Assembly (NCBI GenBank): GCA_947442505.1
Contig: CANEVR010000019.1
Location: forward strand, 1-41,602
Length of the DNA stretch: 41,602 bases
Reading direction: 5' to 3'
Source of the DNA: Flavobacteriales bacterium
GTDB taxonomy: Bacteria > Bacteroidota > Bacteroidia > Flavobacteriales_D > Sanyastnellaceae
In this document: one piece after another, positions 34,144 to 38,430 of the stretch
How the letters are laid out: each line of letters opens with the position of its first letter
How positions within the stretch are numbered: the first letter of the stretch is position 1
Translations under genes and position numbers: made by a program
Notes under the pieces: generated by a model
What the model saw: only the letters and a program-made list of their open reading frames with translations
Database searches by the model: none
Told to the model about the DNA's origin: nothing

Positions 34144-35264
34144 TACTTACCCATCTTCTTTTGCAATTCCTTTGGAAGTGCATCCTTGTGAACCACCATA
34201 CAGACGGTCTTGGCTTTAAAATATGAACCAGAAACATGCTGATATCCTTTGGAGGAATTCTTCTCTCCCCAAGAATTTTTTGTCAAAAAATACAACCCTC
34301 CATTTTGATCTTTACTCAATCCTACAATATGCATCAAATGATCATCGGTGGTAGCAAAGCGATCATAATCCTTTTGACGTGACTCCTGCGTAACAATTGG
34401 CTCAACATGCTTAGTGGTGAACATCTCTTCTTTCTTAACGCCTTCATCCAACAAAACGGCAATGTTGTTCTTATAAGAGAAGCCCCTTTCACTCACGTCT
34501 GCGTCCCAAGCGATGGTATATCCATTCTCCAATGCATGAACTGCCGCTTGGTAAAACTCCTCCAATGGCAAATTGAAATATTGTCCTTTAGACCAATTGT
34601 CAGGAACCTCTACTGCAAAGTTTGAATAATAAGGATGGTGACTAAACGAAGTCAACATCACATAATCATCTGCCTTGATTCCCAATGCATCTCTGAAAGT
34701 AGCTGGTGTATAGGATTTACCTTCAAAATCAAAAGAGGTCGGTATCCTTCCGATGTAGGTGTCTAGCAAAGTCTCAACACCAGATTTCCAATCATTGTTC
34801 TCCTCATTCAGTTTTCTATCCAATACCATTTTGGCCGTTGTTTCCATATAGGCATCCAAAACGTTGTGGTTGTATACACTTGAGCCCATGACAAATCCAC
34901 TGAACACAGATTCTGGAACCAATCCGTACTCTCTAACGGCTTGAATAACATCATGGCTCAAACCTCCTGGTCCCAATTGCTGCTTGCCTTGATACCGAAC
35001 ATATGAATCCACCTTCTTTGGATACATCAAACGTGGATTAATCAATTCCGACAAATCCACTTGCTTGTTGCTGATCCTTGCCACTTCTGATTCCAAAAAT
35101 GAAACCGTAGCAAAACTCCAACAAGTACCTGTTTGACACTGGTCTTCCACCGCACCGTGCTTAATCTCTTTGACAATATTAAACTGATAAGGAAACGCTG
35201 ATTGTTCCTTCTGAGCCGCGGCCATAGAAGCCATCAATGAGAAAATTATTCCTATTTTTTTCAT
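34143..35264 (-). CDS. Exported C1-family cysteine peptidase (bleomycin hydrolase-like)
   Basis: A 373-residue papain-fold peptidase. The start at 35264 gives a short signal peptide (MKKIGIIFSLMASMAAAQ); a longer frame from 35381 would hide it and run through the divergent promoter. The catalytic Cys is C48 in QTGTCWSFATVSF, the His is in DDHLMHIVGLS, and the Asn is in TKNSWGEK. The layout resembles PepC/bleomycin hydrolase (C1B) enzymes, which are usually cytoplasmic, but this one is predicted to be exported. Homologues in Bacteroidota are often annotated aminopeptidase C. It is translationally coupled to mtgA downstream. The -7-like TACCATTG ends 4 nt before the ATG with TTTC 19 nt above it. 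Confidence 0.9.
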   Translation of the reverse strand: MKKIGIIFSLMASMAAAQKEQSAFPYQFNIVKEIKHGAVEDQCQTGTCWSFATVSFLESEVARISNKQVDLSELINPRLMYPKKVDSYVRYQGKQQLGPGGLSHDVIQAVREYGLVPESVFSGFVMGSSVYNHNVLDAYMETTAKMVLDRKLNEENNDWKSGVETLLDTYIGRIPTSFDFEGKSYTPATFRDALGIKADDYVMLTSFSHHPYYSNFAVEVPDNWSKGQYFNLPLEEFYQAAVHALENGYTIAWDADVSERGFSYKNNIAVLLDEGVKKEEMFTTKHVEPIVTQESRQKDYDRFATTDDHLMHIVGLSKDQNGGLYFLTKNSWGEKNSSKGYQHVSGSYFKAKTVCMVVHKDALPKELQKKMGK

Positions 35265-35268
35265 ATTG

Positions 35269-35299
35269 CAATGGTAAGACTTTTCACACGAATTAGAAA
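35269..35299 (-). promoter_or_regulatory. Putative leaderless promoter of the peptidase-mtgA operon
   Basis: On the minus strand, TTTC (35296-35299), 19-nt spacer, TACCATTG (35269-35276), ending 4 nt before the ATG at 35264. Confidence 0.5.
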
Positions 35300-35320
35300 A
35301 CAAATTCCCCTTCGGATAGC

Positions 35321-35328
35321 TACATTTG
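35321..35328 (+). promoter_or_regulatory. Putative leaderless -7 box (TACATTTG) of the ABC operon
   Basis: A perfect TAnnTTTG ending 4 nt before the GTG start at 35333. No -33 box at 19 nt. It faces the peptidase promoter across a 68-nt gap. Confidence 0.55.
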
Positions 35329-35332
35329 CCTT

Positions 35333-35959
35333 GTGTTACAAACGCAATCATTAAAATACCAATACCCTTCCGGAAAACCACTGGTTTTTCCTGATATCCA
35401 TTTTCCTGATGAACAACCCGCCCTAATCTTGGGCGAAAGTGGTTGTGGAAAAACTACTTTACTGCATCTTCTGGCAGGACTAAGAACACCCACGTCAGGG
35501 AATGTAATCCTGGGTCAAACCAATTTGTATTCTCTAACAACTTCTGAAAGAGATGTCTTTAGGGGAAAAAACATTGGGGTTGTATTTCAAACGGCACATT
35601 TCATCCCTTCATTATCGGTACTGGAAAACATCATGATGTCGCTTTATCTCAATGGAAAAGTGCAAGATGAAAACAAAGCCAAGGACTTTTTAAACCTGGT
35701 AAATCTATTCCACAAAGCCTTCCAACCCATAGGATCATTGAGCGTGGGAGAGCAGCAGCGCATTGCCATTGTTAGATCCATCATTCATGAACCGCAGTGG
35801 ATTTTTGCCGATGAACCAACAAGTGCCTTGGACAATAAAAACACAGATCAAGTCATTCACTTATTCATGGAGATGACAAAAACCGTCAACGCTCAGTTGA
35901 TCGTTGTCACACATGACAACCGTTGGGATAATGTTATTGCTAATAAAGTGCAATTATGA
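35333..35959 (+). CDS. ABC transporter ATP-binding protein (LolD/MacB type)
   Basis: A 208-residue ATPase. It has Walker A GESGCGKTT (about 33-41), the Q-loop region VVFQTAHFIPSLSV, the signature LSVGEQQR, Walker B WIFADEPTSALD, and the H-loop VVTHDNRW. It powers the FtsX-type permease encoded next; the ATPase stop and permease start overlap as ATGA, so the two are coupled. The start is GTG, placed 4 nt after a perfect -7 box. LolD/MacB-type ATPases serve lipoprotein release, export or, with this operon layout, metal uptake; the His-rich permease and DUF3299-like partner favour a metal role (inference). Confidence 0.93.
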   Translation: MLQTQSLKYQYPSGKPLVFPDIHFPDEQPALILGESGCGKTTLLHLLAGLRTPTSGNVILGQTNLYSLTTSERDVFRGKNIGVVFQTAHFIPSLSVLENIMMSLYLNGKVQDENKAKDFLNLVNLFHKAFQPIGSLSVGEQQRIAIVRSIIHEPQWIFADEPTSALDNKNTDQVIHLFMEMTKTVNAQLIVVTHDNRWDNVIANKVQL

Positions 35960-37263
35960 ATTTGATTAAACTGGCATTAAAAAACATTAAGTACCAATGG
36001 TTAGACACCATGCTCAGCGTCATTTTATTGGCGTTTGGACTAGGGACGGTTTCCATGCTCATTTTGGTTGAAAAACAAACCGCTGAACAATTCAATAAAA
36101 ACATCAAGGACATTGATATGGTTCTTGGTGCAAAGGGCAGCCCACTTCAATTGATATTGGCCAATGTTTATCACGTTGATGCACCAACAGGAAACATCAA
36201 AGTGGGTGATGCGCGCATGGTCACGGAAAATCCAACCATTGAAAGGGCCATCCCTCTGGCTTATGGTGACAATTTTGAGCAATGGAGAATTGTGGGAACC
36301 GATCAGGGTTATCCAGATCATTATGAAATGAAATTGTCACAAGGACAAAATTTTCAATCCGATTATGACGCCTGTATCGGCGCGGATGTAGCCAAGGTTA
36401 CTGGCCTTAAATTGGGCGACCCCTTCCTCAGCACCCACGGACTGGATCAATCTGAAAATGATGAAGAGCACGCCCATCACCACAATTACACAGTTGTGGG
36501 CATTTACGAGCCCTCTGGAACGGTGATCGATAAACTTATTCTTACACCAGTGTCCACGGTTTGGCACGCACATGAAGACCAAGAAGTGGAAAAGCCAGCG
36601 GAACCCGACACAACATTGACGGTAGAGAAAATTGTTATTAAAAACAACCCTCCCACAATTCGGAAAGGACCGTTGATGATGCTTCGCCCTGCCAAGGAAA
36701 GAGTAGCATCTCCCAATGACAACAAAGAAGTTACGGCATACCTTTTGAAGAAAAGAACGCCAATGGCTCAAATGATTCTGCCCAACCTCATCAAAGAAAC
36801 CAACATGCAGTTGGCACTTCCTGCTATTGAAATCAACCGACTTTCTGAAAATTTTGGTCTAGGTATGGATACCATCAAAGCCATTGCCTTGGTCATCATC
36901 GCACTTTCCTTCATCAGTATTTTTATTTCATTGTTCAATGCATTGAGAAAAAGAAAAAAAGAGATTGCCATCATGAGAACCATGGGCGCAACTAGAATCA
37001 AAGTATTTTGTTTGATTCAATTAGAAGGTCTACTATTGGTCATCATTGGCGGTGCGTTAGCATGGGGGCTAAGCCGAATTGGACTCAGCATTCTAAGCCA
37101 ACAATTGAACAACAATTTCCACTATACCTTTAACATCAAAGACGGATCGCTAGAGGAACTTTACTTATTTGGCGCAGCAATTTTAGCAGGAATGATAGCC
37201 TGTTGGATTCCCGCATATCAAGCCTACAAAATGGACATTTCAAAAACTTTAAGCAATGAATAA
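35956..37263 (+). CDS. FtsX-type ABC permease with His-rich periplasmic loop
   Basis: A 435-residue permease with the FtsX/MacB layout: one N-terminal transmembrane helix (about 18-38), a large periplasmic domain (about 40-305), then three C-terminal helices (about 306-330, 350-375, 403-425). The EIAIMRTMGATRIKVF block that follows the second helix is the MacB/FtsX hallmark. The periplasmic domain has a histidine cluster, H161 then H172 and H174-H176 (EEHAHHHN), and H204 and H206 in TVWHAHED, suggesting metal binding. From memory, similar His-rich permeases occur in Zur-regulated zinc operons of Vibrio and Pseudomonas. It ends 8 nt inside the next gene. Confidence 0.9.
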   Translation: MNLIKLALKNIKYQWLDTMLSVILLAFGLGTVSMLILVEKQTAEQFNKNIKDIDMVLGAKGSPLQLILANVYHVDAPTGNIKVGDARMVTENPTIERAIPLAYGDNFEQWRIVGTDQGYPDHYEMKLSQGQNFQSDYDACIGADVAKVTGLKLGDPFLSTHGLDQSENDEEHAHHHNYTVVGIYEPSGTVIDKLILTPVSTVWHAHEDQEVEKPAEPDTTLTVEKIVIKNNPPTIRKGPLMMLRPAKERVASPNDNKEVTAYLLKKRTPMAQMILPNLIKETNMQLALPAIEINRLSENFGLGMDTIKAIALVIIALSFISIFISLFNALRKRKKEIAIMRTMGATRIKVFCLIQLEGLLLVIIGGALAWGLSRIGLSILSQQLNNNFHYTFNIKDGSLEELYLFGAAILAGMIACWIPAYQAYKMDISKTLSNE

Positions 37264-37789
37264 AATTGGTTTCCTGGTTTCTTTTCTATTTCTCTTCTCT
37301 TGCGCATTCTCTGCCGATGAAGACCCCATTTTTGTATTAAAAGCCAAACCACTTCCTCCTGCTCAAAAATACTTTTTACCCAACAACATAGCCGATTTCA
37401 TGGGAGGGCCTGTGGAATTAACATGGAAAACATTGACCGATGTTGAATTCAAAGACATTTATGTCAAAGAATTGGATGCGTATTATTGGAAACCAACATT
37501 TGGTGCCAGCATCAAAGCATTGGAGGGTAAAGAGGTGTATGTGACCGGTTACGTCATTCCCGTGGACTATGACGCCAACTTCTACGTCGTTTCCCGATAC
37601 CCCTATGCCAATTGCTTCTTTTGTGGAGGTGGTGGTCCGGAGTCTGTGGTGGATTTGAGATTCACTGTCAAACACAGGGCTTACAAGACAGATGAAAGAT
37701 TAACGTTCAAAGGCAAGCTCAAACTGAACGGTGATGATGTGTACCAAATGAATTACATCTTAGAAGGGGCTGTAGAATTCAAACCATAA
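37256..37789 (+). CDS. Exported DUF3299-like protein
   Basis: A 177-residue exported protein; function unknown. The signal region MNKIGFLVSFLFLFSCAFSA could end as a lipoprotein (C16) or by ordinary cleavage after AFSA. The domain includes LEGKEVYVTGYVIPVDYD (about 89-106), the DUF3299-like strand, and RYPYANCFFCGGGGPESVVDL with a CxxC (C120, C123) that may bind a metal. DUF3299 proteins accompany ABC operons of the zinc-uptake type in proteobacteria, matching the two genes before it, which overlap or abut it. The metal-binding DUF2796 subunit of those operons is not seen in this window. The family call is from memory and moderate. Confidence 0.75.
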   Translation: MNKIGFLVSFLFLFSCAFSADEDPIFVLKAKPLPPAQKYFLPNNIADFMGGPVELTWKTLTDVEFKDIYVKELDAYYWKPTFGASIKALEGKEVYVTGYVIPVDYDANFYVVSRYPYANCFFCGGGGPESVVDLRFTVKHRAYKTDERLTFKGKLKLNGDDVYQMNYILEGAVEFKP

Positions 37790-37829: not shown

Positions 37830-38396
37830 ATGGCAGCTACTACCGCAGACATCAGCAATGGAATGTGTTTCCGAATGGACACACACATCTACAAAGTAAT
37901 TGAATTCTTACACGTGAAGCCAGGTAAAGGTCCTGCTTTTGTTAGAACCAAATTGCGCAACTTGAACAATGGTAAAATCATTGATCATACTTTCAACTCA
38001 GGAGTTAAAATGGATACCGTTCGTATTGAAACGCGCGAGTACCAATACTTATACAAGGATGACTCCTTCAATTTCATGAACATGGATGATTACGAACAAA
38101 TCACCATACCTGAAGCAATGATCAATGCGCCTGGTTTTTTAAAAGAAGGAATGAAGTGCATTGTCATGTTCAACGCTGAAGATGATCAACCCATGTCTTG
38201 CGATTTACCTACATTGGTAGAATACGCCATCACTTACACTGAACCTGGTATCAAGGGAGATACAGCAACCAATGCGATGAAACCAGCAACATTGGATGTG
38301 GGTATGGAAGTAAGGGTTCCGCTTTTCATCAATGAAGGTGATTTAATCCGCGTGGATACCTCAACCGGTCAGTACCACGACCGTGTAAAAAAATAA
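37830..38396 (+). CDS. efp: Translation elongation factor P
   Basis: A 188-residue protein that rescues ribosomes stalled on proline runs. The KOW domain loop HVKPGKGPAFVRTKL has lysine K33 at the tip, the residue modified in the lysine-type EF-P group (not the arginine-rhamnose type). The OB domains follow, with YAITYTEPGIKGDTATNAMKPATLDVGMEVRVPLFINEGDLIRVDTSTGQY, the standard end. No modification gene is adjacent. Its own promoter and a strong terminator make it a single-gene unit. Confidence 0.97.
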   Translation: MAATTADISNGMCFRMDTHIYKVIEFLHVKPGKGPAFVRTKLRNLNNGKIIDHTFNSGVKMDTVRIETREYQYLYKDDSFNFMNMDDYEQITIPEAMINAPGFLKEGMKCIVMFNAEDDQPMSCDLPTLVEYAITYTEPGIKGDTATNAMKPATLDVGMEVRVPLFINEGDLIRVDTSTGQYHDRVKK

Positions 38397-38400
38397 TATC

Positions 38401-38430
38401 AAGGCCGTCTTCAGGACGGCCTTTTTTTTT
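38401..38430 (+). terminator. Terminator after efp
   Basis: AAGGCCGTC (38401-38409) pairs with GACGGCCTT (38415-38423) around a 5-nt loop, followed by T to 38430. Confidence 0.93.

Follow-up and report, generated by a model that had tools for sequence, protein, structure and literature searches.

The window, as the whole 41,602-nt stretch of Flavobacteriales DNA is called here, carries three consecutive genes of an ABC-type operon on its forward strand. The first (35333-35959) starts with GTG and encodes an ABC ATPase resembling ZrgC and LolD (PF00005, E 1.4e-28); the second (35956-37263) encodes a ZrgB/PA4065-like permease with a predicted MacB/LolE fold and four transmembrane helices, assigned from PF02687, PF12704, tblastn and a structural model; the third (37256-37789) encodes an exported protein with an OB fold that belongs to the DUF3299 superfamily and is of a type bearing a CxxC motif (C120, C123), assigned from PF11736 matches of its family, Foldseek and VIA. 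The genes are coupled by overlaps, as the preliminary description had stated, of 4 nt and then 8 nt, and the GTG start of the ATPase is kept among relatives in a 23-sequence alignment.

A 68-nt gap (35265-35332) separates the operon from a divergent upstream gene for a papain-like peptidase. Within it, TACATTTG (35321-35328, forward strand) is a putative promoter element that fits TAnnTTTG, a consensus for the Bacteroidota -7 box; it is kept in 4/4 aligned members of the genus, with the GTG start 5 nt downstream. Read as a -7 box, an element so close to the start codon suggests that the ATPase message may be leaderless. Over 35262-35335, both divergent genes appear to start a few nucleotides from a conserved element that is TAnnTTTG or resembles it, so their transcripts may be leaderless. 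In other loci the divergent position is often taken by a DUF4258-like gene of about 130 codons, directly upstream of the ATPase gene in 42 of the best 80 of 552 loci (e.g., L072:4473-4880); it was set aside as a subunit, the pattern looking like synteny.

Downstream of the third gene by 40 nt lies efp, encoding elongation factor P (37830-38396, forward strand; PF09285/PF08207/PF01132). No forward-strand terminator was found between 37789 and 37830, a strong one is located at 38401-38423, and efp is possibly co-transcribed with the operon. An efp-like gene follows the operon in 6 of 31 family loci and in 8 of the best 80 of 552; efp is nevertheless outside the machine proposed below.

Relationship to Zrg systems

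The permease matches FtsX (PF02687, E 1.2e-18), MacB_PCD (PF12704, E 4.9e-10) and no other Pfam family. Its predicted model (pLDDT 86.9) has LolE as the first-ranked Foldseek match, MacB is also matched, and the structural matches include HrtB, a heme exporter. At the level of sequence, ZrgB queries score 140.4 bits (Pseudomonas) and 150.5 bits (Phaeobacter) against this permease, versus 28.0 and 30.9 bits, respectively, against a MacB-like paralogue of the same genome. A tblastn search of plasmid records with the permease matched 118, the best of them at full length (98-100% coverage, E 1e-28 to 1e-32); among the 14 records opened, the gene order is DUF2796-ATPase-permease-DUF3299 in Pseudomonas aeruginosa and Fur-DUF2796-ATPase-permease-DUF3299 in Phaeobacter.

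All histidines of the cluster noted in the preliminary description (H161, H172, H174-176, H204 and H206) are present in the permease, but H172, H175, H176 and H204 are not conserved. H161 and H206, by comparison, are identical in 23/23 aligned family sequences, each of which also has one to five histidines in the loop between them. This three-histidine pattern (H161, a loop histidine, H206), which falls in the periplasmic domain, is common to the Pseudomonas and Phaeobacter Zrg permeases and the window permease, and all of its elements are absent from the MacB-like paralogue.

The operon thus shares with ZrgABCDE of Vibrio and PA4063-PA4066 of P. aeruginosa a separate ATPase and a four-helix MacB-type permease, with the Pseudomonas and Phaeobacter Zrg records the order ATPase-permease-DUF3299 and the histidine pattern, and with PA4066, the last subunit, the fold of the third protein. 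It differs in lacking ZrgA and in having no Zur box that could be found with a gammaproteobacterial motif. The DUF2796-type subunit ZrgA, described earlier as missing, was searched for across the window genome and not found there, and none of 392 Bacteroidota genomes has a ZrgA match (PF10986/DUF2796) over the curated cut-off, four giving weak sub-threshold matches; in the positive control 3/4 plasmid records matched. Since neither the sampled genomes nor the window genome yields a passing match, the absence of ZrgA is a phylum-level feature within this sample and not a local loss. The operon is a Zrg core without ZrgA, hence not ZrgABCDE proper, and very likely works like that core.

For regulation, the searches made here show no parallel to the Zur-linked systems. 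No Zur-box-like palindrome had been seen in the upstream gap, and a search for inverted repeats over 35200-35345 likewise gave none. Allowing up to three mismatches, a Zur box search gave four matches in the window, with 1.81 expected by chance and none near the operon start, the box being a gammaproteobacterial one that may not be the motif of this phylum. The single Fur-family protein of the window genome is closer to Fur/PerR models. Of the proposed resemblance to Zur-linked zinc-uptake operons of Vibrio and Pseudomonas, the Zrg part is supported as homology in sequence, gene order, motif and predicted structure, and a metal (zinc) link by neighbourhoods elsewhere in Bacteroidota and in further phyla. 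The parts concerning uptake and a Zur link lack support here, given the missing Zur-box-like site, the nature of the Fur-family protein, the absence of ZrgA from the sampled phylum and the reading of the Pseudomonas version as a MacB-type exporter in the accessible text of PMC11481552.

A search by title (DUF3299, zrgB/zrgE/PA4065/PA4066, COG0523 and zinc-uptake topics), with subscription journals mostly outside its scope, found no literature on this operon in Bacteroidota, and none was found naming COG3495, presumably the COG of DUF3299.

The exported OB-fold protein

The CxxC motif reported for the third protein was confirmed as C120-FF-C123, and its DUF3299-like character could be recovered in part. 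Taken alone, the window protein has no Pfam match, and the identity emerges through the family profile and the predicted fold. A PF11736 profile search of the window genome gave no DUF3299 match, and the protein as a single query (Pfam, NCBIfam, PDB, plasmids) returned nothing useful, so a family alignment and a model were needed. Among 31 family members, 24 match DUF3299 (PF11736) at E<=1, weakly, with a best value of 8.5e-5. The model of the third protein (pLDDT 80.6, exceeding 90 over most of the core) has a single Foldseek match below 0.001, namely 4hsp (E 2.8e-4), which is the DUF3299 protein PA4066. The same structure also ranks first in VIA (Z 9.0, rmsd 3.3, 109 aligned), with other OB folds close behind, at Z 8.7 and below and within 1 of it. 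A match of profile A1 to the "Putative transfer protein" 8s7l (E 0.0065 over 56 positions) was set aside.

Alignment of profiles with hhalign relates the family both to canonical DUF3299 proteins of the PA4066 type (94.7%) and to the small CPFC proteins of the phosphatase loci described below (96.1%). The direct comparison of canonical DUF3299 with CPFC proteins is weak (24.9%), so the link between these two groups runs through the Bacteroidota family. CxxC occurs in 133/135 third-protein sequences, CxxH in one and neither in one, the 135 being drawn from sets that overlap; it also occurs in 9/9 CPFC proteins, whereas the canonical DUF3299 proteins have C-I/L-H at the same place (5/5 viewed). 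Such a Cys-to-His exchange at the second position would be easier to reconcile with a metal site than with a disulfide. For PA4066 itself, the accessible part of PMC11481552 describes no evident Zn binding. The third protein has a signal sequence and, judged by eye, may be a lipoprotein (C16). One relative (L175:5144-5692) has CFFH in place of CFFC, a natural Cys-to-His swap.

Conservation and metal-linked neighbourhoods

The three-gene unit is common in Bacteroidota. The third gene is present in 30/40 relatives; 23 of the 31 loci fetched have ATPase, permease and third gene in this order, two are cut by a contig end and six contain no more of the unit than the third gene. When named genomes were scanned, all three genes were found in 71 of the best 80 of 552 loci, the permease and third gene in seven and the third gene alone in two, and a relative of the third gene occurs in 62/392 Bacteroidota genomes (46 of these at E<1e-8). 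The family to which the window genome belongs also takes in a contig labelled Crocinitomicaceae (L075).

In that family the operon has no recurrent zinc gene as a neighbour, and the window genome has no match for CobW_C or alkaline phosphatase. The metal link comes from other Bacteroidota and from other phyla. Of the 19 genomes having both genes, 13 (11 genera) place CobW_C no more than 3 kb from the third gene, where random placement predicts about 0.05 such pairs. The test took 63/79 third-gene matches (E<1e-8), corresponding to 46/62 genomes, 19 of them with CobW_C. Fifteen of the 16 genomes left out have CobW_C, none within 3 kb by eye, and the proportion becomes 13/34 if these 15, with their weak third-gene matches, are kept. 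A CobW/COG0523 gene stands directly upstream of the ATPase gene in three loci (L158, L162, L163) and beside a lone third gene in three more (L159, L164, L166), and CobW GTPase genes are found near the third gene in L175 and L176 as well, so that several Bacteroidota families are involved. All four CobW GTPases tested are ZigA-like, scoring 529-570 bits, just short of the 600-bit cut-off, with the next model far behind. ZigA is a zinc metallochaperone; COG0523/CobW proteins serve other metals too.

Alkaline phosphatase provides a second type of neighbourhood. In Bacteroidota it adjoins the operon in two loci (L157 and L162), and was rejected as a general partner in this phylum because, in a search covering 46 of the 62 third-gene genomes, it came as near as 3 kb to the third gene in 3/46 (distances by eye). 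In L157, a GTP cyclohydrolase I gene is also found upstream of the operon. On plasmids of Alphaproteobacteria and Deinococcus, an annotated alkaline phosphatase precedes the small protein in 9/9 CPFC-type loci viewed (L065-L069, L177-L180), PF00245 being confirmed for one of the phosphatases; the five other plasmid loci that were viewed belong to the DUF3299 type and lack this phosphatase-first layout. These phosphatase-CPFC-ATPase-permease loci resemble the window operon in having the same permease family with its histidines and a related CxxC small protein, and differ in gene order, the small protein being encoded ahead of the ATPase and a PhoA-type phosphatase coming first in the set. Several CPFC proteins begin, by eye, with twin-arginine-like signals. 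A text search found no mention of alkaline phosphatase in an RNA-seq study of zinc limitation in Paracoccus denitrificans (PMC5387054), in a strain that may or may not carry the locus, or in PMC4176598.

Possible function

The ZigA-like CobW and alkaline-phosphatase neighbourhoods elsewhere make handling of zinc (or cobalt) the best-supported role of the operon, and one that we consider somewhat probable. Several points count against this role: the window genome has neither CobW_C nor alkaline phosphatase, its own family shows no recurrent zinc neighbour, no Zur box was found, ZrgA is reported as essential and a single zrgE knockout as without effect in V. cholerae, PA4066 is described as having no evident Zn binding, the Paracoccus zinc-limitation study is silent on alkaline phosphatase, and CobW proteins serve other metals too. 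Uptake, and control by Zur, are not supported here. In the proposed mechanism, two ATPases and two permeases would assemble in the inner membrane into an ABC machine of the MacB/LolE (mechanotransmission) type, in which ATP hydrolysis would move the periplasmic domains of the permease. H161, the loop histidine and H206 would bind Zn2+ (or Co2+), and the OB-fold CxxC protein, as a periplasmic or membrane-anchored partner and putative carrier, would exchange metal with this histidine site, filling the place held by ZrgA in Vibrio. Overall, the machine would most likely manage metals in the cell envelope, either when zinc is scarce or on behalf of zinc enzymes, and would not act as a classical channel-type importer. 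Mechanotransmission is cited for the MacB superfamily in the accessible text of PMC11481552.

It is tempting to generalize, in a proposal that we regard as speculative and rather unlikely, that the binding partner is modular around a widespread envelope-metal ABC core made up of an ATPase, a MacB-like permease with the three histidines and an OB-fold protein. Vibrio and Pseudomonas would employ ZrgA together with a C-x-H OB protein, whereas Bacteroidota, Alphaproteobacteria and Deinococcus would employ a zinc-carrying CxxC OB protein that delivers zinc to enzymes such as alkaline phosphatase or removes it from them. This protein would cooperate with ZigA, in the absence of ZrgA, and no metal would cross the membrane.

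ZrgA is reported to be essential to the Vibrio system, yet the same core occurs without it in the sampled Bacteroidota. If this is confirmed, the machine that is conserved would consist of ATPase, permease and OB protein, with ZrgA as an accessory, and the disputed choice between import, export and periplasmic metal transfer would become testable in strains with the minimal set. The ZigA-like and alkaline-phosphatase neighbourhoods provide two independent ways to approach the substrate.

Readings other than envelope metal handling draw on the same relatives. A LolCDE-like lipoprotein-sorting machine, with the CxxC protein as lipoprotein carrier, would explain why the LolD equivalog is the best NCBIfam match of the ATPase, why lolCE is among the best of the permease and why LolE heads its structural matches; both scores, however, fall far below the equivalog cut-offs (167.9 bits versus 307.75 for LolD, 39.1 versus 362.45 for lolCE). 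Together with the family-specific histidines, the DUF3299-fold partner and a permease much nearer to Zrg permeases than to the genome's own MacB-like paralogue, this makes lipoprotein sorting highly improbable, even though the fold and topology of the permease are shared with both LolCDE and MacAB-TolC. A true importer that brings zinc into the cytoplasm and uses the CxxC protein for solute binding also appears doubtful. According to the accessible parts of PMC9817125 and PMC9820375, zrg genes aid zinc-limited growth in V. parahaemolyticus and V. cholerae, respectively, the latter source describing ZrgA as essential and a single zrgE knockout as without effect. The window genome, moreover, has no match for ZnuA (PF01297; 11/14 controls matched), which counts for import, but its two ZIP loci could bring in zinc. 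No MacB-superfamily permease is known to pass substrate through its helices, which counts against import. With ZnuABC (cluster A-I zinc importers) the operon has in common the proposed substrate alone, as its permease comes from an unrelated family and the genome is without ZnuA.

Compared with envelope metal handling, a MacB-type exporter that clears the periplasm of a metal chelate or another small molecule, with the small protein as accessory adaptor, is possible but less likely. The MacB, LolE and HrtB matches of the permease fit it, and PMC11481552, in its accessible text, proposes for PA4063-PA4066 a MacB-type export of pyochelin-cobalt and reports that, in a background starved of zinc, cells deleted for PA4065 contain more cobalt and pyochelin. 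Unlike MacAB-TolC, however, the window operon has an ATPase that is not fused to the permease and contains no MacA/HlyD-like gene, and neighbour clustering over 111 loci (31 plus the best 80 of 552, with neighbours partly annotated) revealed no recurring adaptor gene. Pyochelin itself is not expected in the window organism, which also counts against export. In favour of an exporter, a DUF3299 locus on a plasmid of Rhodobacteraceae M382 (L181:1516-5443) has an HlyD-like gene beside the ATPase gene, on its upstream side. A His-rich small membrane protein is encoded in the same locus as well, likewise ahead of the ATPase, permease and DUF3299 genes.
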